Assembly: GCA_021464245.1 (NCBI GenBank)
Contig: JADCRB010000040.1
Coordinates: 5,052,273-5,116,272, forward strand
Direction of reading: 5' to 3'
Source of the DNA: Carallia brachiata
Lineage: Eukaryota > Streptophyta > Magnoliopsida > Malpighiales > Rhizophoraceae
DNA: 64,000 nt
Shown: positions 1,503 to 49,400 of the stretch, piece after piece
How positions within the stretch are numbered: position 1 is the stretch's first letter
How the letters are laid out: every line of letters starts with the position of its first letter
The notes under the pieces: generated by a model
The model's database searches: none
What the model was told of the DNA's origin: nothing
The model's input: only the letters and a program-made list of their open reading frames with translations
Translations under genes and position numbers: made by a program

Positions 1503-3100
1503 TCAGGAACTCACAAAGTTCCGAATCTCCTCCATAAGGCAATAGAAGTGATCGTTATTCGGCAAGAAGTAGAACCCTATAGTTGCCTGCTTAAGATAGA
1601 GAAGTTTTACTTCATGGCCGGCTTTTTGGAGCCCTTCAACATAACCTAGCTGCCAATCCTGAAGGAGATCCAAACCAGCCACAACAACTAGACTCTTTGG
1701 GAACTTGAGTCCCTTAAGGTTTTTGCCTCTGGGGCCGAATACGTTACATGCCGGATGGTCTCTGTCTTCCCCTTCAGGTAGGAATGCTCTCCAATACCAG
1801 TCTCGAACCTCAATTGACACAAAATACTTGCCATCTAAATTGTTCTCTGATTCCGTTCTCTGTTGCCCCCCGAACATTGGGTGAAGCAATATGTTACCGA
1901 AAACCTCCACTTCTTCTTCAGCTGCCCTCACTGCAACGTGGTGAGCGATATTACCACCTGAACTATCACCAGCCAAATAGACGTGAACCTTGGAATCCTT
2001 TCCACTCTGAAGCCAAGTTCTGGATTTAACCCACTTAAGAGCTTCCCAGCCATCATCATATGCACAGGGATAACGATACTCGGGTGATCGGCGATAATCA
2101 ACCGACACCACAACAGCCTTACAAACGCTTACAAGTCTGCGACAAAAGGTGTCGTAGATAGCACTATTAGCAGAGGAATGGGAAAAGGCTCCACCGTGAA
2201 AGAAGATTATAACAGGAACAATCTCGGTGGTGCTCAAGGGCTTTGCAAGCTCTACAATGCCCCATTGAGCCACATTTTCTGGAGCAGGCTGGTAAACCCG
2301 GTTAAGAAGACCAGTGGCTCGATCAATATGATCGAAGGAGAAAACCCCATCTACAGGGACTGTGTTTGCAGGAACCTTACGGTCAAGAAACTCTGCCAAA
2401 TCTCGGTTTAAGGTCCCATCAGGCCGGCGAAGCAGATTATATGCTAGCTTAAAGTTGGAAATGAGGACCCATGTGTTCAGTGGAACAACCCTCTGCAACA
2501 GCAAAATAATCATTAGATATTTTTCTTGGAAAAAAAAAAAGTTCCACGAAAACATTTTTGGCTTTTAATTGAGATCTAAGATTGACAGTATGCATCCCTT
2601 GGGATATTATTCAGCACCCAAAAAGGCAACAACGGAAAGAAGCACCCCCAAGACTGTAAGAAAAACGTTACCCACAAAAGTATGATTGAAAATCCAGAGC
2701 GCGAACGCCAAAAAGACTTGATAGGGAAGAAAAATCGAACGAAAAAACAACAATTTCATCAACCAATCATATTCGCTAACATCAAAAGCTGAAAAGAAGC
2801 AAACTTGGATTTAAAATCAAAGTGCCATAGATTGAAGTCGAAACCCTTTATTGCATTTTGCCAGAACAAATGGCTTAAACAGAACACGAAAGATTTTTCT
2901 TTGCCATTATTTGACAGAAAATCGAAAACACCCCTCAAGTGAAAGCAATTATTAAGTCTGGATTTCCCATCTCTCTGTCACTGAAAACAAAATAACTTCA
3001 GATGAGAATCAAAAAAAAAAAAAAAACCCGAGAGAAGAAACGAGAAGGGGAGAGAGAGAACCTTAGATTCATTAAGGTTGACCTCATTACTGCCAGCCAT
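1503..3100 (-). CDS. GID1: Gibberellin receptor GID1 (GID1B/C-like)
   Basis: This soluble receptor binds bioactive gibberellin and then recruits DELLA repressors for SCF-mediated degradation. The CDS is complement(join(1503..2492, 3062..3100)), 342 aa, within the usual 340-360. Exon 1 encodes the first 13 residues (MAGSNEVNLNESK) and joins RVVPLNTW after a 569-bp GT-AG intron. That single intron after the N-terminal tip is typical of GID1. Visible features are the N-terminal lid segment (about 1-50), the HGG oxyanion motif, and the GDSSGGN nucleophile elbow of the hormone-sensitive-lipase fold. The position where esterases carry the catalytic His (HGF) reads IGF. Loss of that His is the hallmark that separates the receptor from active carboxylesterases. 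The ORF is intact. The start was chosen by family match; ATGs further 3' lie in intron sequence. A CT-rich leader lies upstream at about 3101-3430. Confidence 0.95.
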
Positions 3101-9104: not shown

Positions 9105-9122
9105 AAAAATTTCCTTGCTAAT

Positions 9123-9765
9123 TGTAAACTAATAATTTTATAAAAAAAAAAAAATTATATGGTTGGCAGCCGCCAACCTTGAAGGTTGGCAGCTGCCAAC
9201 CTAATTAATGCCACCAACCATTTGGTTGGTGGCAGGCAGGCATGGGGGGCCTATAAATGGCCTCCCCAATTGAAGAAAAAAAAAAGAAGCCAGCAGAAGA
9301 AGAGGAAAAAAAAAAAGAAAGAAGAAAGCGCAGAAGAGACAGCGAAGCGAAAAAAAAAAAAAAAGAGAGAGATAAAAAAAAAAAATCAAAATATTACAAA
9401 TCCGGCTGGGATTAAGCCTCATACGGCCCTCAGAAAAATCTAGGCAACTCATCCGAGAACAAGTCCATTCGACCATCAGTGAAATTAAGTCAGATCGGCT
9501 CAGATCAAGTTTCTACGGTTCCTAAACGTATCAAAACATCCAAATCAGACACAGTTTCAGTCTATCCAGTTCAAGAAGCGGTGGAAATTATTTTTGTCAA
9601 GATCAAGCTCGTGCAGCCCTTGACGGAGTCAAAAAAGGAACACTAATCGGAGGATCTACGGAGATCGACCCCACGTAAATTTTCTTTTACTTTACAATTT
9701 TTATTTGTAATTTATTTTTGTATTTTCGAGTTTAATTATTTTAGGCTCGAAATTTACGCTTTACA
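9123..9765 (+). repeat. 5' LTR
   Basis: A 643-bp direct repeat matching 18446-19074, beginning TGTAAACT and ending TTTACA. U3 contains a perfect 18-bp palindrome GGTTGGCAGCTGCCAACC (about 9184-9201) and a near-perfect copy just before it. Next is a 10-bp-stem inverted repeat CCACCAACCA/TGGTTGGTGG (about 9210-9231), then a TATA box CTATAAATGG (9251-9260). Downstream, R/U5 is strongly purine-rich (9271-9400). The 5' LTR has a 23-bp insertion, containing the perfect palindrome, that the 3' LTR lacks. The TSD CTAAT precedes it. Confidence 0.95.
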
Positions 9766-9771
9766 AATTTT

Positions 9772-9789
9772 TGGCACGCTCGGTGGGAC
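9772..9789 (+). other. Probable primer-binding site
   Basis: TGGCACGCTCGGTGGGAC begins six bases after the LTR end. A TGG start, complementary to a tRNA CCA 3' end, is the normal arrangement in plant LTR elements. The primer tRNA was not identified with confidence. Confidence 0.6.
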
Positions 9790-9898
9790 AACTTCACCTC
9801 CCATCTCTTGTTCCTAAAAAAAAAAGAGGTAAAAGGGGAGCGAGAGAAAAAAAAAAGTAAAAAAAAAAAAAAAATTTTACAGGTGTTCAGCACATCAA

Positions 9899-11460
9899 AT
9901 GGCACCGAAAAGGAGTACAACTGCTGCCACAAAAAAGAAGGCAACGGCTCCATTGCCTGCATCAACTACCCTACCTGGGTACGCAGGTCCAGAAACCCGG
10001 GGACGGACACAATTTCTTGCCGTCCAAACCCGACAAAATGTCGAAATGGAGAGTCCACAGCTTGCACAACAGGATCTCTCCCCTGACTCTCTTGCCGCAT
10101 GGAGGAGTCGATCACCCACCCCGATCGAAGTCGGGGGCAACGCGACGAAACCGCTCAACAGAATCCAACTCATTCTGTAGAGATCCACACAGAAGAATCA
10201 GAAGAGTTTTCTCCCCCAGTCTTTCCCGGAGCCTCATCTGTTGCCGTCATGATGACCAACACAACCAGCACAGAGGAAAGGATTTCAGAATTGGAGAACA
10301 AAATTTTACAGCTGATCAGAGTCGTGGAGGAAAAAGATCAACAGATCGCAGCTCTCAAAGGAAAAGCCCCGATCCAAGTTGATCCCGAAATCCGCGAGGA
10401 GCAACCATATCCACCCGGTTTCACTCCAGAAGCCACACCAGCCGACGTCTTCCCTGCAGAAAAGCGACCAGGTAGTTCTACACAGCTGCCACCCTCAAAT
10501 TCTGTAGCTTCGCTATCTGTTCAACAATTGCAGGAAATGATAGCCAATACGATCCGACTGCAACAAGCTACATCCTTCCAAGGATCACAGATGTACGTCA
10601 AACCGTACACCAGACGGATCGAAAGTCTCAACATGCCCTTGGGCTACCAACCGCCCAAATTTCAACAATTCGACGGACGAGGCGATCCCAAACAGCACAT
10701 CGCCCACTTCGTTGAAACCTGCAACAACGCAGGGACTTACGGAGATCTCTTGGTGAAGCAGTTTGTTCGTTCACTCAGGGAGACCGCTTTCACCTGGTTC
10801 ATAAATCTTGAACCAGAATCGATCGACAGTTGGGAACAGCTACAACGAGAGTTCCTCAACAGATTTTTCAGCACTCGAAGGACGGTAAGTATGATGGAGC
10901 TTACCAGCACCAAACAAAGAAAGGAGAGCCCGTTGTCGAATACATCAACAGATGGCGTGCCCTCAGCTTGGACTGCAAAGATCGCCTGACGGAGACTTCT
11001 GCCGTAGAGATGTGCATCCAGGGAATGCATTGGGAGCTGTTATACATCCTGCAGGGTGTCAAACCCCGAACTTTCGAAGAACTGGCGACCGCGCACATGA
11101 TATGGAGATAAGCATCCAACTTCCGGAGGCACGGTTCCCATCCAGTTGGACCAGCAAGGGGGCAGAAGGGAGATTAAGAAACCCAACAGCTCCGGAAAAG
11201 GGAAAGAAGTGATGACTGTTGAAGCCGCACCAGTAAAAGTGGGAGCTAAAGCCAAGGTAAATCCTCCGACCCAAATAACTCAGCCAAAACAACAGGAAAG
11301 GCGGAAGGTGACATTGCGAGAGCTGGAGCAGAAGCAGTATCCATTCCCCGACTCAGACGTCCCCGACATTCTTGAACAACTCTGGAGGCGAAGCTGATCG
11401 AACTCCCAGAGTGCAAGCGGCCGAATGAAAAGGATCGAGTCAGCGATCCAAGATTCTGCA
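9899..11460 (+). pseudogene. Retrotransposon gag (frameshifted)
   Basis: Structural capsid protein region. The first ATG (9899) opens a basic, low-complexity N-terminus that runs in one frame to about 10150. The protein then continues in a second frame to about 10915, with a coiled-coil-like stretch (ISELENKILQLIRVVEEKD), followed by the conserved retrotransposon gag core (FDGRGDPKQHIAHF ... FVRSLRETAFTWF ... FLNRFF). Further frame changes occur near 10915, 11100 and 11390. The tail holds the Tat-typical stretch with KYPFPDSDVPDIL-like residues. No intact zinc knuckle was identified with certainty. It is contiguous with the protease region. All frames are as read; the breaks mean no single functional Gag can be made from this copy. 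Confidence 0.85.
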
Positions 11461-13329: not shown

Positions 13330-14450
13330 CCACAACGACGGTTCCGCCCGGAACTCATTCCACAAATCGAGGAGGAGGTGAACAAGCTGATCAATGCTGG
13401 CTTCATCTGAGAGGTCACCTACCCAACGTGGATTGCCAATATTGTCCCGGTAAGAAAGAAGAATGGACAGTTGAGAGTATGTGTTGATTTTCGAGATCTT
13501 CCGAAAGATGACTTTCCATTGCCCATAACGGAGATCACAGTCGATGCAACAACGGGTCACGAAGCATTGTCCTTCATGGATGGTTCTTCAGGCTATAACC
13601 AAATCAGAATGGCACCAGAAGACGAGGAGTTGACAGCATTCCGCACCCCAAAAGGTATATACTGCTACAAAGTTATGCCGTTTGGATTGAAAAATGCTGG
13701 CGCTACTTATCAACGTGCTATGCAAAAAATTTTTGATGACATGCTGCACAAGATTGTAGAATGTTATGTTGATGACTTAGTTGTAAAGACTAAAAAGCGC
13801 AAAGACCACCTTGAGGATCTCAAGACAGTGTTCGAGAGACTTCGGAGGCATCAGCTCAAAATGAACCCTCTCAAGTGCGCATTCGGTGTCACATCAGGAA
13901 AGTTTCTTGGGTTCGTGGTGCGCCATCGTGGAATCGAAGTTGATCAGTCAAAGGTTGAGGCAATTCAAAAGATGCCTGAACCTAAAAACCTGCACGAGCT
14001 GCGAAGTCTACAAGGAAAGCTGGCCTACATTCGCCGTTTCATCTCCAATTTAGCTGGGAGATGTCAACCTTTCCATCGGTTGATGAAGAAGGATGTCAAC
14101 TTCGAGTGGGACGAAGCTTGCAGCAAAGCCTTTGAGAGCATAAAGAAGTACCTTTCCAATCCACCGGTCCTAGGTGCTCCAATTCAAGGAAAGTCGTTGA
14201 TTCTCTACATTGCAGCGCAGGAAAGATCTTTGGGAGCCTTGCTTGCACAGGAAAACGAGCAGGGAAAGGAAGTTGCCCTGTACTACTTGAGCAGAACACT
14301 AAACGGTCCGGAGCTGAGTTATTCGCCCATTGAAAAGACATGTCTAGCACTGTTCTTTGCCATTGACAAGCTGAGGCACTACATGCAGCTCACACGGTAC
14401 GTCTCATTGCCAGAGCTGATCCTGTCAAATATATCTTATCAGACCAATCT
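13330..14450 (+). pseudogene. Reverse transcriptase plus Ty3-type RNase H (degenerate)
   Basis: The RT core is in one frame from 13330 to about 14398, interrupted by TGA near 13408 and by a 12-bp in-frame deletion just after the CVDFRDL motif (near 13498). The catalytic YVDD box is intact at about 13766-13777, as are FRTPKG and MPFGLKNAGATYQ. The first RNase H follows (LGALLAQENEQGKEVALYYLS). Two compensating frame changes occur around 14398-14445. The family and lineage are clear, but the deletion and stops make this copy non-functional. Confidence 0.9.
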
Positions 14451-15067
14451 TGTCAGGACGACTTGCCAAGTGGGCAGTAATCCTACAAAGCTACGACATT
14501 GTCTACGTGCCTCAAAAAGCAGTCAAAGGACAAGCTCTAGCAGACTTCCTTGCAGATCACCCTGTTCCGTCAGATTGGGAGTTCACAGATGATCTTCCAG
14601 ATGAAGAGGTCTTTTACATTGAGACACTACCACCATGGACGATGTTCTTTGATGGTGCAGCAAGGCGTGATGGTGCTGGTGCCGGCATAGTGTTTGTCAC
14701 TCCTCAACGACAAATACTACCATATGCTATCATTCTCGGTGAGTTATGTTCAAATAATGTTGCTGAATACCAGGCTTTGATCATTGGTCTTCAAATGGCT
14801 GTCGATATGAAGATTCCAACTATAGAAGTCCATGGAGATTCCCAGCTCGTCATCAACCAACTTACAGGATTGTATGATGTGAAGAAAGAGGACCTTGCGC
14901 CTTACCATCAACGTGCTCGACAGCTAATGGATGAATTTGAAAGCATCACCTTGGAGCATGTGCCTCGACGAGAAAACACTCAGGCAGACGCGTTGGCTAA
15001 CCTGGCACTTCTCTTGCAAAGTCAGAAATCCAGGCTACAGTTGTTGCCGTGTGCCAGAAATGGATAG
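14450..15067 (+). pseudogene. Second (Tat-type) RNase H domain
   Basis: A 205-codon open frame that begins in the RT/RNase H connection (SGRLAKWAVILQ), passes a linker ending ALADFLADHP, and then holds a complete second RNase H. Acidic catalytic residues are visible in FFDGAARRDGAGAG, the NNVAEYQALIIGL glutamate, HGDSQLVINQL and the ADALANLAL aspartate. A duplicated RNase H of this kind after the Ty3 one is a Tat-clade trait. The domain itself is uninterrupted; the frame breaks immediately downstream near 15060. Confidence 0.85.
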
Positions 15068-16376
15068 TGCCCAAAAGGATGATGAAGAAACTACAGCAGC
15101 CAACGCTGTATCTACGTCTCGCGGAGGACGAGATTGGCGCCAACCAATCATTGACTACCTACAGCACGGGAAGCTGCCCGAAGATCGTCGTCATAAGACA
15201 GAAATTCAACGACGAGCTCCCCGCTTCATATATCTCAAGGATGCTCTGTATCGAAGGTCTTTTGATGGAGTTCTACTTCGCTGCCTAGCCAATGAAGAGG
15301 CAAAACAGGCTCTCACTGAAGCACATTCTGGTGTTTGTGGCGGACATCAATCGGGGCCTAAGTTGCACTTCCAACTCAGAAGGATGGGATACTACTGGCC
15401 AACCATGGTACGTGATTCAATTGAGTTTGCTAAAACTGTCAAGCTTGTCAATTTCATGCGAATTACATACATCAACCACCGGAGCCACTGCATCCAACTG
15501 TCTCATCCTGGCCCTTTGAAGCTTGGGGTCTCGACTTAGTGGGGCCCTTGCCAAAGTCATCCCTGGGTCACCTGTACATCCTCGCAGCAACCGACTACTT
15601 CTCAAAATGGGCTGAAGCCATTCCACTTAGAGAGGTAAAGAAGGAGCATGTTGCCAATTTCATCCGGACTCAGCTGATCTATCGCTATGGAGTCCCTCGA
15701 TTCATCATCACTGATAATGGTAAGCAGTTCTACAACAGCTTGATCGACAAGCTCTGCGAGAAGTTCAAGTTCAAGCAGTACAAGTCATCCATGTACAATG
15801 CCCCAGCAAATGGCTTGGCCGAAGCATTCAACAAGACCTTATGCAACCTGTTGCGGAAGGTAGTCTCTAAATCCAAAAGAGATTGGCATGACAGAATTCC
15901 GGAGGCATTATGGGCGTATCGTACAACTTACCGGACTCCAACACAGGCGACGCCATACTCACTTGTCTACGGTGTCGAAGCAATACTGCCGTTGGAAACA
16001 CAGATTCCATCCCTGCGCATGGCTGTTCTGGAAGGACTCACACAGGAGGAGAATGCTCGCCTACGTCTGGATGAGTTAGAAGCCTCGATGAAAGGAGGCT
16101 CGAAGCACAACAACAACTTGAGTGCTACCAAGCCCGGCTCACCAACACGTTCAACCGCAGGGTCGCCTCGATCTTTTCAAGTTGGAGATCTTGTTCTTGC
16201 AGTGCGACGGCCCATCAACATGAAGCATCGGCCTGGTGACAAGCTTACTTCCAAATGGGACGGGCCATACTTAGTGCAGGGAGGCCTACACTCACAACGC
16301 TTACATGCTGTCAGACCAAGAAGGCGTCCGAATCGGCCCGATCAATGGTAAATTTCTGAAACAGTATTATGTGTAA
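15068..16376 (+). pseudogene. Retrotransposon integrase (frameshifted at both ends)
   Basis: The N-terminal zinc-binding part (HSGVCGGHQ ... GYYWPTM) is in one frame to about 15435, where a frameshift cuts it before the second pair of zinc ligands. The catalytic core then runs uninterrupted from about 15539: AATDYFSKWAEAIPL (first D), FIITDNGKQFYNS (second D), and GLAEAFNKTL (E), so the DDE triad is intact. A C-terminal SH3-like region (GDLVLAVRRPI ... KLTSKWDGPY) follows, with another frame change near 16300. The expected end of pol lies at about 16376. No chromodomain is seen, consistent with a non-chromovirus lineage. Confidence 0.85.
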
Positions 16377-16385
16377 ATATGTTTA

Positions 16386-16398
16386 AAAGAAAAAAAAT

Positions 16399-16445
<47 letters not shown>

Positions 16446-16735
16446 AAAAATCAAAAAAAAAAAAAAAAAAAAATCAAAATAAAAAAAAAAAAGTTACGAA
16501 GTCCCGATCTGAAAGTCTAAGCGAAAATCCAAACCCGAAAATCCAAACCCAAACACTTAAACCCAATTCAGAAAACTCAAAACCCAACTCAAAACCCTGA
16601 AAACCAAATCCAAAAGTCCAAGTCCAAAGCCCAAACACTCGACCCAAATCCAATCCAAAACCCCAAAACCAAAATTCCAAATTCCAGACACAGTCCAAAA
16701 CCCAAGTTCAAAATCCAATCCAACTCCTGGCCCGC
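16386..16735 (+). repeat. A-rich and CCAAA-rich low-complexity spacer
   Basis: About 110 bp of nearly pure A (16386-16492) is followed by about 230 bp built from irregular CCAAA/AACCC/TCCAAA units. It lies between the end of pol and the WOX ORF. The long ORFs across it are artefacts of composition. It may be an expanded simple repeat marking the junction between the retrotransposon body and the captured gene. Confidence 0.75.
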
Positions 16736-16860
16736 ATGAGTATAAACTGTGAACGGCCCAAAAATATAAAAGTAACGGAGGGTTTGAGTCTGAAACTCAG
16801 CATCAGTCTCAACCGATCTTCACCACATACCAAGACCTTTGCCCCTCTGCCACAAGAAAG

Positions 16861-17175
16861 ATGGAACCAGTTGCAGAACCTCAAGACAAGGGAGAAGAAA
16901 GATCACCCCGCACAAGGTGGCAACCGACCATGGCACAACTGGAAATTTTGGAGGAAGTCTTCCACAACAATGGAGGTATTATTCCTAGTGCATCTCAAAT
17001 TTACCAACTTGTCTCACGATTGCGCCCGCTCGGGGCAATCGAAGGAAAAAATGTGTTTTATTGGTTCCAGAATCGGAGAAGCAGGAAGAAACCAGCACTG
17101 AAAACTGCTTTTTCCAAAGAACAGTCTGTCGTTCCCATAGTAAATCCCACTGGTACAGCTTCGACCTTCAAATGA
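16861..17175 (+). CDS. WUSCHEL-related (WOX) homeodomain ORF inside the retrotransposon
   Basis: A 104-codon ORF starting at an ATG and encoding a WOX-type homeodomain at about residues 18-78. The domain begins TRWQPTMAQLEILEE, continues PSASQIYQLVSRL and G-IEGKNVFYWFQN, and ends RRSRKK. The RW.PT..QL.ILEE start and the NVFYWFQN recognition-helix signature are diagnostic of the plant-specific WUS/WOX class, whose members are nuclear DNA-binding factors controlling stem-cell niches. The homeodomain is fully open although the neighbouring pol is riddled with frameshifts. It is in sense orientation between pol and the 3' LTR, with no intron visible. The ORF stops at 17175, probably because of a one-base shift near 17160; the continuation is listed next. 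Whether it is expressed is unknown. Confidence 0.85.
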   Translation: MEPVAEPQDKGEERSPRTRWQPTMAQLEILEEVFHNNGGIIPSASQIYQLVSRLRPLGAIEGKNVFYWFQNRRSRKKPALKTAFSKEQSVVPIVNPTGTASTFK

Positions 17176-17440
17176 AGCAGGTCCGAGTTCTTCCACTGCA
17201 ATGGTCTCTCCACGGTATGTTCATCAAAGCCGTAGCCCATGGGAGCATGCATGCTGGTCCTGGTGGTCTTACGGAGTCAGCCAAGGGTTCATCCCTCCTA
17301 GATACTTAAGTCTAAGAGGAACTTTTCTAGCAGAAAGGAGTTATTCCGGCGAAACTTTGCCTCTCTTTCCAGAATATTCCGACAGCATCAACCAGCCGGA
17401 AAGTGACGTCAACATCATTGGCCCACCAGACGTGGTCTAG
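17160..17440 (+). pseudogene. C-terminal part of the WOX-like protein, with WUS-box-like motif
   Basis: In the frame next to the homeodomain ORF the reading stays open from at least 17162 to a TAG at 17438. It includes SNEAGPSSSTAMVSPRY, then SYGVSQGFIPPRYLSL, and ETLPLFPEYSD at about 17357-17389. TLPLFP matches the core of the WUS-box (T-L-x-L-F-P), the C-terminal repression motif found in the WUS clade (WUS, WOX1-7). Together with the upstream homeodomain this gives the two hallmark parts of a WUS-clade protein in the right order and spacing. One frameshift near 17160 currently separates them. Confidence 0.65.
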
Positions 17441-17495
17441 CTTGACTTGGAGTTGTCCCTCGGGCCCCGCTAGGACGGCAGACAAGATAAGGTGC

Positions 17496-17627
17496 AACGA
17501 CTTTAGCAGCACACGGTAACGACTTCTACAGCACACGGCAACGACTTTGGCAGCACACGGTAACGACTTCTGCAGCACACGGCAACGACTTCTGCAACAC
17601 ACGGTAACGACTTTCATGACACGCGTC
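17496..17627 (+). repeat. 22-bp tandem repeat array, six units
   Basis: Five consecutive 22-bp units of the form AACGACTTYNGCAGCACACGGY span 17496-17605, and a degraded sixth reaches 17627. Variants alternate (TTTAG, TTCTA, TTTGG, TTCTG). Tat-lineage elements are known to carry tandem repeats near their 3' ends that can seed satellite DNA. The array is 56 bp downstream of the WOX stop codon. Confidence 0.9.
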
Positions 17628-17639
17628 AGCCGCTGCCTC

Positions 17640-18430
17640 TTTTGTCTCTTATGCAGGAAAGGGACGTGGATGTCCCTACTCGATTCTGCGTACCTTCTTT
17701 TTTGACTTTTCAAAAAAAAAAAAAAAAAGCCTTTATTGTATGTATATATATATTGCATTCCCGAGTTGTAATACTCACCCTTCAGCTCTTCTTTCTCAAA
17801 AGAAAATGGCTAGTCTCTGCACTTGTCCCAGGAAGTTCTTTGATCAAAAAGTTGGAGGAGCACAAGCTAAGAAAAGAAGGAGTAGTCTTCCTCGAGGGAT
17901 CCCTAACGCCATCGGTGTCATGGAGTTCCAACTACTCTCCTTAGTTCACATCTATCGCAGCGAGCCGAGAAGTTCTGATCGTCCTCCTGGATCTACAAAT
18001 GCAGCGACGTGCAGGGAAGTTCCAACTACTCTCCTTATGTCGAAGCAGATTCGGGAATTATCACCATAACTCGTCTCTCTGTGCGCAGGTCTTAAAGTTC
18101 CAAAGTGCTGGGCCTTCCTCTTGGGGAGGTTCAAGTTCTTTGCCTACCGGATCATCCTCACCAGAGCTCTGGAACTTTAAGAGATATAAAAAAACCTTTG
18201 CGGGCTATGGAAGCTCGAATGCACCTGAAGCCAAGGCTTCAATTTCTATATTGGCTGGGCTGCTAACTTCCTCAAGATCATATCGGTTTCCTATTGCGAT
18301 CCAACAACAGCGGACATGGTCAAAGATAGAAAACTCTAAGATTCAATGTTCATCAGGACTTTCCAAATTTCAAACTGGACTTCAAGATTCGGTTCGAATT
18401 ATCTCTGTAAAAATTTTTCTTACCGACCCT
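17640..18430 (+). other. 3' untranslated/unknown region of the retrotransposon
   Basis: Between the tandem array and the polypurine tract. A short poly(A) run (about 17713-17728), a TATA-like GTATATATATATTGC (about 17741-17755) and an ATG at 17805 opening an 88-codon ORF (MASLCTCPRKFFDQ...) resemble a promoter and start, but the protein is not recognised. GTTCCAACTACTCTCCTTA occurs at about 17926 and again at about 18019, indicating a local duplication of about 92 bp. No retroviral domain is present. It could be further captured host sequence. Confidence 0.4.
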
Positions 18431-18431
18431 T

Positions 18432-18445
18432 GAAGTGGGGGCATT
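18432..18445 (+). other. Polypurine tract candidate
   Basis: GAAGTGGGGGCATT lies directly against the 3' LTR start and is the purine-rich plus-strand priming site expected at this position. Confidence 0.7.
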
Positions 18446-19074
18446 TGTAAACTAATAATTTTATAAAAAAAAATAAATAAATTATATGGTTGGCAGCCGC
18501 CAACCTAATTAATGCCACCAACCATTTGGTTGGTGGCAGGCAGGCATGGGGGAGGCCTATAAATGGCCTCCCCAATTGAAGAAAAAAAAAAGAAGCCAGC
18601 AGAAGAAGAGGGGAAAAAAAAAGAAAGAAGAAAGCGCATAAGAGACAGCGAAGCGAAAAAAAAAAAAACAGAGAGAGATAAAAAAAAAAATCAAAATATT
18701 ACAAATCCGGCTGGGATTAAGTCTCATACGGCCCTCAGCAAAATCCAGGCAACTCATCCGAGAACAAGTCCATTCGACCCTCGGTGAAATTAAGTCAGAT
18801 CGGCTCAGATCAAGTTTCTACGGTTCCTAAACGTAGTCAAAACATCCAAATCAGACACAGTTTCAGTCTATCCAGTTCAAGAAAAAGCGGTGGAAATTAT
18901 TTCTGTCAAGATCAAGCTCGTGCAGCCATTGACGGAGTCAAAAAAGGAACACTAATCGGAGGATTTACGGAGATCGACCCCACGTAAATTTTCTTTTACT
19001 TTACAATTTTTATTTGTAATTTATTTTTGTATTTTCGAGTTTAATTATTTTAAACTCGAAATTTACGCCTTACA
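18446..19074 (+). repeat. 3' LTR
   Basis: A 629-bp direct repeat of 9123-9765, beginning TGTAAACT and ending CCTTACA, followed by the TSD CTAAT (19075-19079). The TATA box is flanked here by a perfect inverted repeat GGGGAGGCC ... GGCCTCCCC. It lacks the 23-bp palindrome-bearing segment present in the 5' LTR. Confidence 0.95.
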
Positions 19075-19079
19075 CTAAT

Positions 19080-30685: not shown

Positions 30686-30981
30686 TCCCCACCATTCCCT
30701 TCACACTCTTGAGCTAATCAACAACCAAAATAATAAATTAAATTAATCCACTAATCAAGAGCAACTTGGAAGTAAAAGTGCCCATTGTTTAACGGACACA
30801 GCAATAATTAAGCTCAATCAAGATTCATAAAAATGCACTACATCTAAAGGCAAGAGCCTAAGAGGACCATCCTGAAGTTTCTCATCAGCTTCATTCTTTG
30901 GCAGTACCATTTCCACCAAATCAAACAAGTCCAACAAGCTTTCTTAATTTTCTGAGAAAAAGAAAGAGTCTTTGGATCACC

Positions 30982-32187
30982 ATGGACAGATTGGTGAAAC
31001 CAGACGTGAAAGAACTGAAAGTAACCTTCAAGAAAGGCAAAAGGTGCTCGGCGACTTTCAAGCTAAGCAACCTCATGCACACCATGGCTGTGGCAGTTTC
31101 TTTGACCACTACAGACCCATCATCTGTTTACTCTTTCTCACAGCCTTTTTCTATAATCCCACCTCTCTCGTCCGCATCTTACTCGCTCGTGCTCTCCCAA
31201 CCGTCTGATCAACCCCATTTCTCCAACAGTCCTGAAGCCATCACCGTTAAGTCTTCCATGCTCCCAACCGGGAAGGCCCATCTGGAAGATCTCCGTCGAC
31301 TGTTTTGTAGACCCGGATCCCATATTTTTAAAGATGCAATTATACCCATCTCTCTTGTGGGTGCCCCAGTTGCTAAATATCTCATCTTTAATCACACCCA
31401 AATACCAGATGTTTCCTTCCATTTTAACAAAGCCATTTCTGGGTGTTCTGTTTCTCAACTCACGGCTCTGCTAAGGTCCGCCGTGTCGTCCGGGAATGCT
31501 GACATGGTCGCTAGATTGATTGAAGTAGGTGGAGATGTGAATTGCAAGGATTCAGATGGAATTTCACTGATCTCCTTGGCTGTGAAAGTAGGAAACTTTG
31601 ACATCGTTAACGTCTTGATTGGTTCTGGTTGTTCAGTTGATGTCTCGAAGAACAAAGTACTCCATTACGCGGCAGAGGAAAACAGAGTGGACTTGATGGA
31701 ACTGTTATTGAATAATTTTAAAAAACTGGATGCCAATTCAGTCGATTCTCGAGGTAGAACCCCAATTCATGTTGCAGCCAGTTGTGGTCATGTTCAGTCG
31801 ATTCGGTTCTGCGTCTCTGTCGGAGGAAACACAGATGTTTTGGATCGTAAAGGACGGAGTCCACTCCATTTGGCAGCAGAGAAAGGGCACTTAGAGGTTG
31901 TCAACTATTTATTGGATTGTTCAGGTTACAATACTCAAAGTGCAGTCAACCAACATGGGAAGACAGCTTCTGCAGTAGCGGTTGATCAAGGACGTTCAAA
32001 ATTGTACGGTTTGTTGCGCTTCGCAGATGCTTGGCAGAGAGGAGCCAGATTGAATGATGTTAATTGTATCAGAAGCTGTAGCTGGACATTAGATGTGGCA
32101 GAGAGGAGCCATGGTGGCAGATCGTTCCAATGGCACATTAGATGTCGGCCACTTCCATTTTTTTCGCACATGGATACACACCTGTAG
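30982..32187 (+). CDS. VAPYRIN-like MSP/ankyrin-repeat protein, C-terminally altered
   Basis: A single-exon, 401-residue ORF. The start ATG (MDRLVKPDVKEL) matches the usual VAPYRIN-family N-terminus; codons upstream are not used. Residues about 1-110 form a VAP/MSP (major sperm protein) domain with CSATFKLSNLMHTMAVAVSLTTT. About 150-375 contain ankyrin repeats (DGISLISLAVKVGNFDIVNVLI, GRTPIHVAASCGHVQSI, GRSPLHLAAEKGHLEVVNYLL). VAPYRIN is an endomembrane-associated scaffold needed for arbuscular-mycorrhizal and rhizobial accommodation; VAPYRIN-like paralogues are less well understood. Known members are longer (about 500-540 aa) with more ankyrin repeats. Here similarity stops after ARLNDVNCIRSC, and the last 30 residues come from short duplicated sequence, so the protein is probably truncated. 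Function is inferred from the family. Confidence 0.8.
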   Translation: MDRLVKPDVKELKVTFKKGKRCSATFKLSNLMHTMAVAVSLTTTDPSSVYSFSQPFSIIPPLSSASYSLVLSQPSDQPHFSNSPEAITVKSSMLPTGKAHLEDLRRLFCRPGSHIFKDAIIPISLVGAPVAKYLIFNHTQIPDVSFHFNKAISGCSVSQLTALLRSAVSSGNADMVARLIEVGGDVNCKDSDGISLISLAVKVGNFDIVNVLIGSGCSVDVSKNKVLHYAAEENRVDLMELLLNNFKKLDANSVDSRGRTPIHVAASCGHVQSIRFCVSVGGNTDVLDRKGRSPLHLAAEKGHLEVVNYLLDCSGYNTQSAVNQHGKTASAVAVDQGRSKLYGLLRFADAWQRGARLNDVNCIRSCSWTLDVAERSHGGRSFQWHIRCRPLPFFSHMDTHL

Positions 32188-32654
32188 CTGGACATTATTA
32201 TTTGCCTTTCTCATTTGCTTATTCATAGATGAAACACAGTACACAACAATCATCAAAGGGGTCGGTGGAGGGTCAGACTAATACTTATATTATTTCTCTC
32301 GTATCTATGTTAGGAGTGCTAACATTTTTACCGATTGAATTGTAAGACAGTTTAGAGAGAAGTATTTGTCCCCCAAACTAGTTTGCAACCTTCCTGACAC
32401 TCTTTTGTACTCGTTATCTTCTGATTTTCACATTAATGCATCATGCTATCACGCTTTGGTCCGAAAAAAAAGAGACTGCGGGGTGAGAAAAAGGGTTGGG
32501 TTCCCCGCCCCAGGTGAGGCCTAAGGCTCAACCAACTCGCCCAATCCTCACATTGATGCTTTCTTGCGAGTAGCAGAGTATCCCTGCCTTGCAAGAGGTC
32601 TCCAGGGGCTGGGCTGGGCTGGGATATCAAGGCCCGCTGCGGGTCAAGTCTCAC
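32188..32654. other. 3' flank of the VAPYRIN-like gene and a GC-rich segment
   Basis: 32188-32440 looks like an ordinary AT-rich 3' region. From about 32455 to 32654 the composition becomes GC-rich (GGGCTGGGCTGGGCTGGG near 32610), starting TTGGTCCG plus eight A. This may be a fragment of a dispersed repeat. No gene recognised. Confidence 0.4.
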
Positions 32655-32707
32655 AGATTAATGATCAAATTAGGACAAAAAAAAAAAAAAAGATTAATGA
32701 TCAAATT
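32655..32707 (+). mobile_element. Ultra-short poly(A) retro-insertion with 17-bp TSD
   Basis: AGATTAATGATCAAATT occurs at 32655-32671 and 32691-32707, perfectly repeated. The inserted sequence is only AGGAC plus 14 A (32672-32690). It lies about 10 bp upstream of the H2A.X promoter repeats. Confidence 0.75.
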
Positions 32708-32717
32708 GAGTTACTCT

Positions 32718-32904
32718 GCCAAGCTGGCAATCCTTGTGAAACCAAACAAACCAATCAAATTGGGGAAAATCTGTTCCGCCACGCTGGTGATCCTCGTGAA
32801 AGCAAGCCAACCAATCAAATCGAACAAATATCCGCAGCCACGCTGGCGATCCTCGTGAAATTTGATTAAACCAATCACAACGCCCTCGATCAAAATCTAT
32901 AAAA
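32718..32904 (+). promoter_or_regulatory. H2A.X promoter: three CCAAT-bearing tandem units plus TATA box
   Basis: Three related units begin at 32718, 32778 and 32837 (spacing 60 and 59 bp). Each reads GCCA(A/C)GCTGG.(A/G)ATCC(T/C)(T/C)GTGAAA, a variable stretch, then ACCAATCA. A TATA box TATAAAA follows at 32898-32904, about 125 bp before the ATG. CCAAT boxes are common in histone promoters, but a triplicated unit is unusual and could tune S-phase or DNA-damage expression. Confidence 0.75.
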
Positions 32905-33028
32905 CCCAACCTGTACACCCCCACTCTTCACCTACCAACAAAAATTTCGAAGCAGAGTTTGAAAAGGCGCCAGAAACTCTAATCTCGCATATTCTAAAGA
33001 AACTCAAAAGCCGACGCTAACAATCACC

Positions 33029-33562
33029 ATGAGCTCCACCGGCAGAGGCAAGGAGAAGGCCAAATCGGTGTCAAAATCCCAGAAGGCCGGCCTTCAGTTT
33101 CCCGTCGGCCGTGTCGCTCGGTTCCTAAAGAAAGGCCGATATGCTCAGCGGGTGGGATCTGGCTCCCCCGTCTACCTCTCCGCTGTCCTCGAGTACCTTG
33201 CTGCTGAGGTTGGTTGATCCCCGACTACCCATTTCTTGTTTTTGTCTTTAATTGGAAGATTTTTCTTCCTTTTTTTTTTTAAAATTATTTTTTCAAAGTT
33301 TTGTTGCAAAGTTCAATTTTTTTTTTTCTTTCAGGTTTTAGAGCTTGCTGGGAATGCTGCAAGGGACAACAAGAAGAATAGGATAGTTCCAAGGCACATT
33401 CAGTTGGCTGTGAGAAACGATGAGGAATTGAGCAAGCTTTTGGGGTCTGTGACCATTGCAAATGGCGGCGTTTTGCCCAACATTCACCAGAATCTGCTGC
33501 CCAAGAAGACCACCGCCAAAGGAAAGGGCGCCGAGATCGGGTCTGCGTCTCAGGAGTTCTAG
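33029..33562 (+). CDS. H2A.X: Histone variant H2A.X
   Basis: A core histone variant whose C-terminal SQ[E/D] serine is phosphorylated by ATM/ATR at DNA double-strand breaks. The CDS is join(33029..33208, 33335..33562), 135 aa, of normal length. The single GT-AG intron (126 bp) falls after LEYLAAE, splitting the histone fold at a conserved plant position. The N-tail [21 protein letters not shown] is followed by the H2A fold ([51 protein letters not shown], and the acidic-patch EEL). The C-terminus GSASQEF carries the diagnostic plant H2A.X motif SQEF. There is no extended SPKK tail, so it is not H2A.W, and the sequence is not H2A.Z-like. Both exons are intact. The promoter lies immediately upstream. 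Confidence 0.97.
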
Positions 33563-46410: not shown

Positions 46411-46480
46411 ACTACAGCAAGATCTTTATTTTTTTTTTTATTTTTTATTTTTTTTGGTCTGAACTACAGCAAGATCTTTA
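46411..46480 (-). mobile_element. Ultra-short poly(A) retro-insertion at the NDX stop codon
   Basis: ACTACAGCAAGATCTTTA at 46411-46428 and 46463-46480 is a perfect 18-bp direct repeat. It encloses 34 bp which on the minus strand read TCAGACC followed by an A-rich tail of about 27 bases. The copy of the repeat next to NDX contains its TAA stop (46478-46480), so the insertion hit the first bases of the 3' UTR and duplicated the stop region. Confidence 0.75.
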
Positions 46481-49400
46481 TTGATCTCGCAAGATGTGAA
46501 TGCTGTTTCCATCCCACAACACTCTCATTACCCCAATCTTTGTTTCAGTCTCACCAAATGAGGTGCCTGTAGCTTCCGATGGATATGGAAGCCGTGTCCA
46601 TCGCTCAGCCACAAGCTCGATAACATCTACAACACATGTCCCTGATTCCTCCAAGCTTTTCCCATACCAATTACCTTGAGTTTGATGTACCTTCCCCTTG
46701 CCAATCTCATCTCCTTTCTCATTCACGATCACAACATTTTGACCTGCCTTGCACTTGGTATTTTCGGGGGTGACGCTCTCTTTCAAAGCAGCCTCAGCAT
46801 TTTCTTCGGCGCCAATTCTTGGCGTGCTTTGAAGGCCTCTAGCGCCTGATGGGACACTATCTTCACCAGGGCTCACGGGTGAATCACGTGGATGCCTTCG
46901 TGTTGGCCCAACTTGCTTCTCTGGTACAACTGTCTCAATCTCTATCGGTGCACGTGCATCCTTACCTGCACGAGCTAATCTTGCTTTTCGGTTGTTGAGC
47001 CTGTATCAACATTGGGGCATAAGTCTATTAGCAAAGAAAAATAATAGTTAAAGAACATTACAAATTTCCACAGCATAATTCACTCATCCCACACTACCCA
47101 GCAAAACAAGCGTGAGACTGCCCCAACTTCTTGCATAGCTATACCGTGCCATTATAACCCTATAACTATGGAATAAACATTTCTAATATTCCTCCTACGC
47201 AACTGCAGTCAGAATTGCTGATAGACATACAAGGGCAGACTTTCAATTAAGCAACTGGATAGAAGGCATTAAAGATACCATTGGAATGCACATATAAAAA
47301 AGTACACTACAATTTATGTCAACCCAGGCCAGTCATAATTTACTCATCCATGCTACATCTAAAACAAGTTGTTACACAGCCGTTCGAAAACCTTCAGATG
47401 TAAAAGAGAAACAGCATAGTTGATTCCAATACCAAGGAAGTTTACAGAACTGGCTTATATCCAACCATGCACTGCTGGCATCTGCAGATGAAAGTAGCTA
47501 TCTTTTCACATGAAGATCTTATATATGGTTACATGTGCATGGTGAAGTTTATAGTCAACAACTGTTATCAGCCACAAAATTCACTTATTCCCTTTCAAGC
47601 ATTTCTCCTGCCCTTCATTGCCAAGAATCATAAGAAAAAATTTCTAAACACTTCAATCTAAAATAAGGCATTAGGAATGCCAACTTCTAGTATTTTTCAA
47701 TGTGGTTGATATGCTAAAAGGACTGTAAGCTCATGGAAGAAAAGGAAAATTGAAACCATTTAAACAGATAGCGGTCCCCTCACCAATTTTTTAGCTGTGA
47801 AGGTGTAACTTCTGAACCCTGGAAAACACAAATGAGAAATGTATTAGGGTATTCTGCATTACATTGTCCACAAATAGAACGATCAAAATATACCATGGAT
47901 TATTCACATTGAGGTGTTACATACATGAAGACTTAATTTATCAGCCCATGACTGTAGAGAAGCTGCATTCCGCTGCATTTCAGGTTCATCCAGCAGGGCT
48001 TTCTCCATAAGATTCATCTGATAATCATTCATGATGGTACGCTTCCTTTTTCTTGGCTGTTTTTCTTCAAACTGGACAGTTTCAACTTTTTCATCCCCTG
48101 GAATTCCCCGAAGACCACTTTCTTTGACATGGTCACTTAATTTTGGGAAGTCACCATTCATTGTTAGTCCAAAAACATTCTTCTCCCTCGTCGAACTTGC
48201 ATCTGAACCACTTGTGTCAATATTCTGAGCATCTCTGTCAATCTCTCTTAAAACGCCAGATGCACTCCCACCGGATTTATCTCTATCTTCTTTCATCACA
48301 TCGTCGCCTTGATTTGTATGCTCGCTTGTGAAATTAAGCTGCTCCTCTTGGATTGCTGAATTCTCAGACATTTCCTCTTTGTGGTCACCATTTTGGTAGT
48401 TACCATCAGAAGTAATTTTCCTTAGTACGGGTGAAGAGCATCCCCCAATACTTTGTGCCTCCTGCCACAAATCAAGCCCTATTTATATGAGGATACCGTG
48501 CAGAACTTGGACAACTATTAAAGTAAACTCGCAGTAGAGAATTTTAAAAGAAAACTATTAAATCAGCTAACGAAAGTCAATTTACAAAGCTTAAATTCGG
48601 ACCCTGGTATTGTTGACAAACATATATGGCTATTTAGTTTTTGAGTTGGAATGGCTAACTATGAACACAGCTTAATTACACGATGCCCCACATAAAGGGG
48701 GGTTCCCAGTGCATGAGGCTCCCGCACTATGAGGTCTGAGGAAGTTCAGATGTATGCCCCCACATGCCATAGTAAAATACATGTTAATTTTTTTCTACAA
48801 ACACCTTTATGGACTTTCTGAGTCAATATATATCTTCCAGCAGTAGAACCTTTGATTGGGCTTTAATTTCAGGAGCCACACTACCAAACAGGAATGACCA
48901 TCAATAATGAGTTACTTAAATTGAACTCCTAGCATTCACCTGATGACGCTCGCTGATGTTGACTTTAGAGAACCTATCCAATGAAATTGAACTCTCAAAT
49001 TTGTTTTTCAGAATCTGCCCCAGGGGTATAATTAGAACCATTTAAAACTAGGTGTATGAAAGAAAATGACACTGCCTTAGTCACCATGCAATGAGAAGAA
49101 AAAAGGAAACCATATCATTATTCAAGGAAAAGACATACTCGAGCTTGACTTTCTTCAAAATCAGATGGATTAATCAGCGACTGCAATTGGTTAAAGAATA
49201 CTCTGCAACAAAAATTCACGAGAGAAAAAATGAACACTAAAAAAGCAGTGCAAAGACATCAGGAATATAGGTACACCATAACAATGAATGGTAAGAAATT
49301 GTACTAGACTTAAAAGCACATAAAAGACAGCTGATAAAACAGAATGGTTATCCAGAATCATCAATGATCAATATAGAGTTCCAATCAGAGCACTATTTGT

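Follow-up and report, generated by a model that had tools for sequence, protein, structure and literature searches.

The stretch of DNA analysed here (64 kb, referred to as the window) contains an LTR retrotransposon with an additional WUS-like ORF in sense orientation between pol and the 3' LTR, downstream of every element domain recognized by Pfam. All features of the element given below lie on the + strand. The element is bounded by the target site duplication (TSD) CTAAT, read directly beside the LTRs at 9118-9122 and 19075-19079. Its 5' LTR (643 bp, 9123-9765) and 3' LTR (629 bp, 18446-19074) align over 623 sites with 12 transitions and 10 transversions, corresponding to a K2P distance of 0.0362. 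As judged by eye, a putative primer-binding-site-like stretch starting with TGG is present just past the 5' LTR (9772-9789), and a polypurine-tract-like sequence lies ahead of the 3' LTR (18430-18445). The Pfam domains represent gag (10087-10989; Retrotrans_gag, 1.6e-7), reverse transcriptase with a first RNase H (13411-14592; RVT_1, 8.8e-31, and RT_RNaseH_2, 9.4e-23), a second RNase H (aRH, 14420-15067; RVT_3, 1.9e-25) and integrase (15434-16351; rve, 8.4e-11). The gag-pol region of this copy requires at least 11 breaks (1.76/kb). An A-rich tract (16385-16492) separates pol from the homeobox gene, which is directly followed, 3' of its EAR-like motif, by tandem repeats of 22/44 bp (17494-17614).

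A second RNase H is described as the hallmark of the Tat clade, and its location between RH and INT as the arrangement seen in Ogre and Retand elements of angiosperms, in the main text of the respective survey (PMC6317226). Because the RVT_3 domain sits between RH and INT, the element should be regarded as a member of the Tat clade of Ty3/gypsy, as judged from its domain order (RT-RH, RVT_3, rve), LTRs and 5-bp TSD, with the subgroup left unspecified. The stretch from pol to the 3' LTR (2094 bp, 16352-18445) falls below the range of 2933-6566 bp given for Retand elements in the text of a recent survey (PMC11963269). The one antisense ORF scanned in this decayed copy (17327-17809) matched no Pfam family, including TRP28, and no Pfam family was found in the single stretch scanned for the extra PMD-domain ORF of Ogre (9833-10180), which is stated to be present in just 57% of the Ogre elements (PMC6317226).

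Apart from the element, the window harbors a gibberellin-receptor-like gene at 1503-2564 (- strand; Abhydrolase_3, 4.7e-61), which we take to code for a GID1-like gibberellin receptor, as well as ordinary host genes at 30862-33562 (+ strand), namely an ORF with ankyrin repeats and the C-terminal exon of a histone H2A. An NDX-type host homeobox gene with Nodulin_C and HTH_NDX domains is located about 27 kb past the element at 46478-48482 (- strand) and is unrelated to the homeodomain described below, of which no second one of the same kind was detected within the 64-kb window.

Properties of the WUS-like gene

The 5' part of the WUS-like gene is open over 104 codons from its ATG (16861-17172; Pfam Homeodomain, 3e-13). 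Codons 17-80 (16909-17100) represent a WUS-type homeodomain (HD) with a one-residue insertion found only in WUS, and NVFYWFQN is read from the translation at 17050-17073. The best relatives of the ORF among proteins of solved structure are Arabidopsis WUSCHEL (7.9e-19) and, next, STENOFOLIA (1.9e-16). The initial annotation, which had placed a WUSCHEL-type gene with a full WOX homeodomain in sense orientation inside a TSD-bounded Tat-lineage element, is borne out by these matches, the aRH domain and the CTAAT repeats. Moreover, the gene runs beyond 17172: past a frameshift, another frame holds a WUS box (TLPLFP, 17354-17371) and then, at the gene end, the EAR-like motif LDLELSL (17441-17461), which follows a TAG at 17438-17440 in the window copy. 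HD and WUS box are out of frame here and share one frame in many of the sister copies of HD type 1 (see below). The whole gene is thus predicted to code for a WUS-like protein of about 203 codons with homeodomain, WUS box and EAR-like motif; the roles of the latter two in WUS proteins are dealt with in the main text of PMC4901127. As a chance control, 5000 dinucleotide shuffles of the gene tail were searched, which gave a WUS-box match in 5/5000 and L.L.L in 1722/5000 cases, whereas the ordered pair within a single frame arose in 0/5000. The EAR-like match taken alone is weak, because L.L.L arises that often.

A single-sequence AlphaFold model of the HD consists of three helices with block means of 88-93 over residues 21-70, and its first Foldseek matches in the PDB are WUS HDs (53% identical). 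According to the accessible description of WUS-DNA structures, R38, Q89, N90 and R94 recognize bases, whereas K82, N83 and Y86 hold the backbone (PMC7203112). All seven of these residues are kept in the HD of the window copy, which is identical to Arabidopsis WUS in 32/63 positions; with identities at random positions, 7/7 contacts would be kept with a chance of 0.006. The recognition-helix residues around R94 are altered, with RRSRKK replacing HKARER. Finally, a TATAAAA sequence (16765-16771) is present as candidate internal promoter 96 nt 5' of the ATG, with no ATG in between. TATA[AT]A within at most 135 nt upstream recurs in 50/50 copies chosen by similarity and in 2/2 of those chosen by integrase that reach that far (both samples are described below), which is suggestive of a promoter belonging to the WUS-like gene itself.

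Distribution of the gene in the genome

Copies were searched in the window's own genome alone (337.5 Mb, 164 contigs). The WUS-like segment is represented by at least 150 copies with 88-100% identity, including that of the window, among the best 150 of 1804 first-look candidates. If a second HD type was used as query, about 108 of the best 150 rows showed 90-100% identity by manual count, 74 of these 108 being identical over all 104 residues; of the other rows, 3 show 84-86%, and 39 show 77-81% and represent type 1. A few rows at 84-93% in this search may be additional recombinants. Counting both HD types, at least about 258 scored copies carry the gene. The integrase of the window retrieved at least 150 copies with 99-100% protein identity (best 150 of 2641 candidates), and 641 bp of 3' non-coding DNA gave 40 scored matches at 88-100% (1309 candidates).

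A second sample was drawn from the integrase matches by picking plus-strand rows at steps of four, beginning with row two, and adding row four (n = 20); it is small, consists of copies with near-identical integrases, and shares at least 3/20 with the similarity-chosen list. The WUS-like segment is present in 20/20 of these copies, as judged from DNA matches, and should therefore be regarded as a regular component of the family rather than a single-copy event, in agreement with the initial proposal of a family dispersing the gene. The HD signature reads NVFYWFQN in 13 of the 20 and has the type-2 form NVYFWF in the other 7. Full ORFs, 195-215 codons long and including an in-frame EAR region, occur in 28/50 similarity-chosen copies, and ORFs of 205-209 codons in 5/20 integrase-chosen ones, the typical C-terminal end of full-length copies being ELDLELHLGPR. 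Counted in any frame, the WUS-box pattern is found in 36/50 and 12/20, and the EAR-like pattern in 46/50 and 18/20 copies of the two samples, respectively. The integrase lies upstream of the WUS-like gene in 47/50 similarity-chosen copies. LTR pairs were matched in 18/20 further copies, several of them partially, with K2P distances of 0.0017-0.125, and an own 5-bp TSD was read in 9/20, in three of these nine after shifting the boundary by one base. From their sequences, the copies are considered separate insertions, some of them young.

The copies fall into two HD types, which differ by about 24% of the bases over codons ~40-80 and by just 1-7% at either end of the gene. Type 2 contains ILPLFP in place of TLPLFP and F at the position of Y86, and the residue at the Y54 insertion of WUS is H in type 1 (including the window copy) and Y in type 2. 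The synonymous divergence between the HD types amounts to 0.42-0.52, and full-length copies occur in both. A third group of copies is closer to type 2 just ahead of the HD core and closer to type 1 inside it. The HD types look like a mosaic block in one backbone, as would result from recombination between element lineages, which co-packaging of their RNAs would permit. The loci assigned to type 2 (L096, L099, L101, L105, L108, L112 and L113) contain the diverged block inside otherwise near-identical sequence.

Selection on the gene

The values of omega (dN/dS) given here are derived from pairwise comparisons of non-independent pairs. A first estimate for the HD (0.085-0.161, 50 copies) was set aside as biased, because these copies had been picked by HD protein similarity, and the integrase-chosen sample was used instead. 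In this sample (n = 20), omega is 0.336 for the HD (bootstrap over copies, 0.30-0.37), 0.68 for the linker, 0.78 from WUS box to EAR motif, and 0.63-0.78 for linker plus C-terminus. One type-1/type-2 pair shows dS of 0.49 and dN of 0.13 in the HD (Fisher test on rounded counts, p 0.001) and no deviation downstream of it (p 0.84). For codons 33-80, comparisons between groups give an omega of 0.38-0.43 and those within groups 0.43-0.58; in two of the three groups, the within-group value of the C-terminal part rises to about 1.1. As judged from these substitution patterns, the comparison of the copies shows purifying selection on the HD, which is less tight than that on the integrase (omega 0.15-0.17 in the similarity-chosen sample).

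Constraint on the HD, as envisaged in the initial annotation, is therefore retained on the basis of the copy comparison, and the hint seen there in an HD that stays open next to a disrupted pol was dropped, because at 1.76 breaks/kb a stretch of 312 nt stays intact with P = 0.58, which leaves the hint without weight. The same annotation had named an HD missing from other copies, an assembly join of an unrelated WOX locus and random decay of a single insertion as possible objections. The copy searches retrieved the HD elsewhere, the structure recurs at other loci, and the gene exists in many copies with the omega value of the HD given above, so that none of the three objections applies.

Relationship to the host WUS genes

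With the Arabidopsis HD as query, the host genome yielded two WUS genes (84 and 81%) along with seven other WOX HDs (66-74%). Identity of the element HD amounts to 49-51% with the two host WUS (31/63) and to 40-50% with the other host WOX HDs. It aligns without gaps to the two host WUS and Arabidopsis WUS, and with one gap to the seven other host WOX HDs and STENOFOLIA. The one-residue insertion (Y54) is specific to WUS, according to the texts of PMC3701499 and PMC7203112. The element gene combines a WOX-type homeodomain with the insertion known only from WUS and with a C-terminal WUS box and EAR-like motif. In a WOX phylogeny, which had been proposed as a check, all element rows are united in a single clade (100/100) with a long branch leading to it, and the joining of this clade to three WUS rows is weakly supported (70/65). 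The HD insertion should be regarded as the better character for a WUS origin than the tree.

The two host WUS paralogues (L078 and L079; G000:C90:2365921 and C65:261075) differ in their HDs by a dS of 0.16, indicating a recent pair and a past duplication. Synonymous sites between element and host WUS are saturated (pS 0.74-0.79), so that the acquisition is far older than this duplication; the identity of only about 50% to host WUS, together with the saturation, likewise indicates an old event. The recent capture considered initially was therefore given up. An intron inside the HD was unusable as a mark of mRNA capture, because the HD of host WUS itself reads through without a break, and the spacing from HD to WUS box served as the mark in its place. 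In the host gene L078, both lie about 1.2 kb apart with 13 in-frame stops between them, presumably on different exons, whereas they are continuous in the element. This continuity points to a spliced WUS-type transcript as the probable source of the element gene.

Discussion

The WUS-like gene is probably a resident of its Tat-clade Ty3/gypsy family, which is high in copy number and was recently active, and codes for a long-lived accessory transcription factor. The term "cargo" used in the initial annotation is correct in that the gene rides in the element, but understates its role, because the ORF segment is present in 20/20 integrase-chosen copies and the HD is constrained. We infer that template switching in the particle long ago brought a spliced WUS-type mRNA into an ancestral element. 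The protein would be made from the internal TATA promoter or from element RNA, enter the nucleus and bind to WUS-like DNA sites, and its C-terminal motifs may recruit TOPLESS-type co-repressors. The element could benefit if host cells were kept in or pushed into a dividing, meristem-like state, or if its own transcription were tuned there, so that new insertions would reach the germ line; this benefit is the least certain step. Self-regulation via the LTRs was rejected as a candidate, since WUS-type TGAA repeats and G-boxes are not enriched there. Compared with shuffled LTRs, TGAA stays under the mean, and of the WUS sites only TAAT is mildly high (14 vs 8-9; fractions 0.02 and 0.04).

A more far-reaching version is put forward tentatively and with more doubt than conviction. 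In this version, the LTR lineage owns a long-lived stem-cell regulator, a WUS-like repressor acting on the meristem cells that found the germ line, and its DNA specificity diversifies as lineages of the element exchange HD blocks (types 1 and 2). If true, a stem-cell regulator owned by a retrotransposon would be to plants what a viral oncogene is to its host.

It is rather unlikely, although it has to be taken seriously, that the gene codes for an accessory nucleic-acid-binding protein with no role in host development, whose HD serves the particle, integration or silencing. Such a function would agree with the lack of WUS site enrichment in the LTRs, with the changed residues around R94 (RRSRKK for HKARER) and with other accessory ORFs of Retand elements, which encode the TRP28 domain, predicted to bind DNA in the survey text (PMC11963269). 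However, the base-reading residues are kept in the HD of the window copy, and the EAR-like motif and WUS-box pattern are found in most copies of either sample, which argues against this reading. Still less probable is a captured WUS-like gene of the founder that is useless to the element and merely copied along. The relaxed values for linker plus C-terminal part (0.63-0.78, and about 1.1 within two groups), the full ORF in just 5/20 integrase-chosen copies and the LTRs without enriched WUS sites are compatible with a passenger, but the HD shows an omega of 0.336 in a sample picked independently of it, is still about 50% identical to host WUS despite saturated synonymous sites, retains 7/7 DNA-contact residues in the window copy, and occurs as two types, both of which include full-length copies at a synonymous divergence of 0.42-0.52.

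The remaining two explanations have a negligible probability. Plant LTR elements are known to transduce genes in events of one or a few copies, as stated in PMC11963269, but a recent one-off transduction of host WUS by the window copy alone, now decaying, is refuted by the copy searches (at least ~258 scored copies and 20/20 integrase-chosen ones), the host WUS identity of merely 31/63 and the saturated synonymous sites. Equally hard to maintain is a processed WOX retrogene that landed in an already inserted element and is hence not carried by it: an A17 run lies downstream at 17712-17728, but no target-site repeat flanks the gene (the two sides share just two 9-base matches), and copies that differ in their TSDs show the same structure, which refutes a nested insertion.

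The preferred reading of a resident accessory factor gene bears on how parasites reach the next generation. The plant germ line is set aside late, out of the shoot stem cells, so that a parasite acting on these cells would be passed on. We know of no earlier case of a mobile element carrying a plant stem-cell switch, and a WUS-type factor kept under constraint for a long time by a retrotransposon family would, to our knowledge, be the first of this kind. A constrained WUS relative in an element family raises the question of whether a parasite uses the stem-cell switch of its host, and opens the way to testing directly whether elements manipulate meristem identity, beyond hiding from silencing. 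Moreover, where such families exist, element genes can slip into genome-wide tallies of "WOX genes".

Comparison with known systems

Searches for relatives outside the genome gave no candidate for the HD ORF in a protein database seemingly devoid of plant WOX proteins, no relative of the HD ORF, the integrase or a degenerate NVFYWFQN pattern in viral contigs, and no match in plasmids. In bacterial genome contigs, seven stretches fit the degenerate pattern, with little similarity outside the motif itself (best tblastn 3e-4 over 33 residues, L005), and were judged to be chance matches. In the literature searched, namely freely readable main texts including PMC4901127, PMC11963269, PMC7264820, PMC3701499, PMC7203112, PMC10473749, PMC6482515, PMC12946498, PMC6317226, PMC9289625 and PMC5501002, no WOX gene inside an LTR element was found. 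Note that the minimum ORF sizes stated in the surveys (250 codons in PMC6317226, 600 bp in PMC11963269) are above or near the size of the WUS-like gene. In a screen of 121 angiosperm genomes, a homeodomain is absent among the domains named in the main-text section, the full chart being given in the supplement (PMC9289625).

The element gene shares the one-residue HD insertion, the WUS box and the EAR-like C-terminus with Arabidopsis WUSCHEL and the two host WUS proteins. It differs from them by an HD identity of only about 50%, an intronless connection of HD and WUS box, its high-copy mobile location, and the replacement of HKARER by RRSRKK or RRHRET. LONELY GUY, another plant regulator, has a role in the shoot meristem. 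Gypsy elements of Citrus contain the YgdH/LONELY GUY domain of this cytokinin regulator and thus represent a suggestive parallel, although it is an enzyme domain (PMC9289625, main text). Positional analogues are the accessory ORFs of Retand elements with TRP28, which also lie between pol and the 3' LTR of Tat elements and for which DNA binding has been suggested; however, those with known domains are antisense, whereas the homeodomain ORF is in sense orientation (PMC11963269, PMC7264820, as far as their main texts report). In the text of the Retand survey, no sense ORF of more than 600 bp between pol and the 3' LTR had a known domain (PMC11963269). The Ty3/gypsy elements of Phalaenopsis with a 2-ODD ORF, described in the main text of PMC9289625, are likewise nested within Tat, and their extra ORF with a domain of host type has been retained by a family over several replication rounds, but this ORF codes for an m6A RNA demethylase, that of the window family for a WUS-type transcription factor. 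Extra ORFs in Tat elements are therefore already known, and it is the WUS-type factor under selection that is new.
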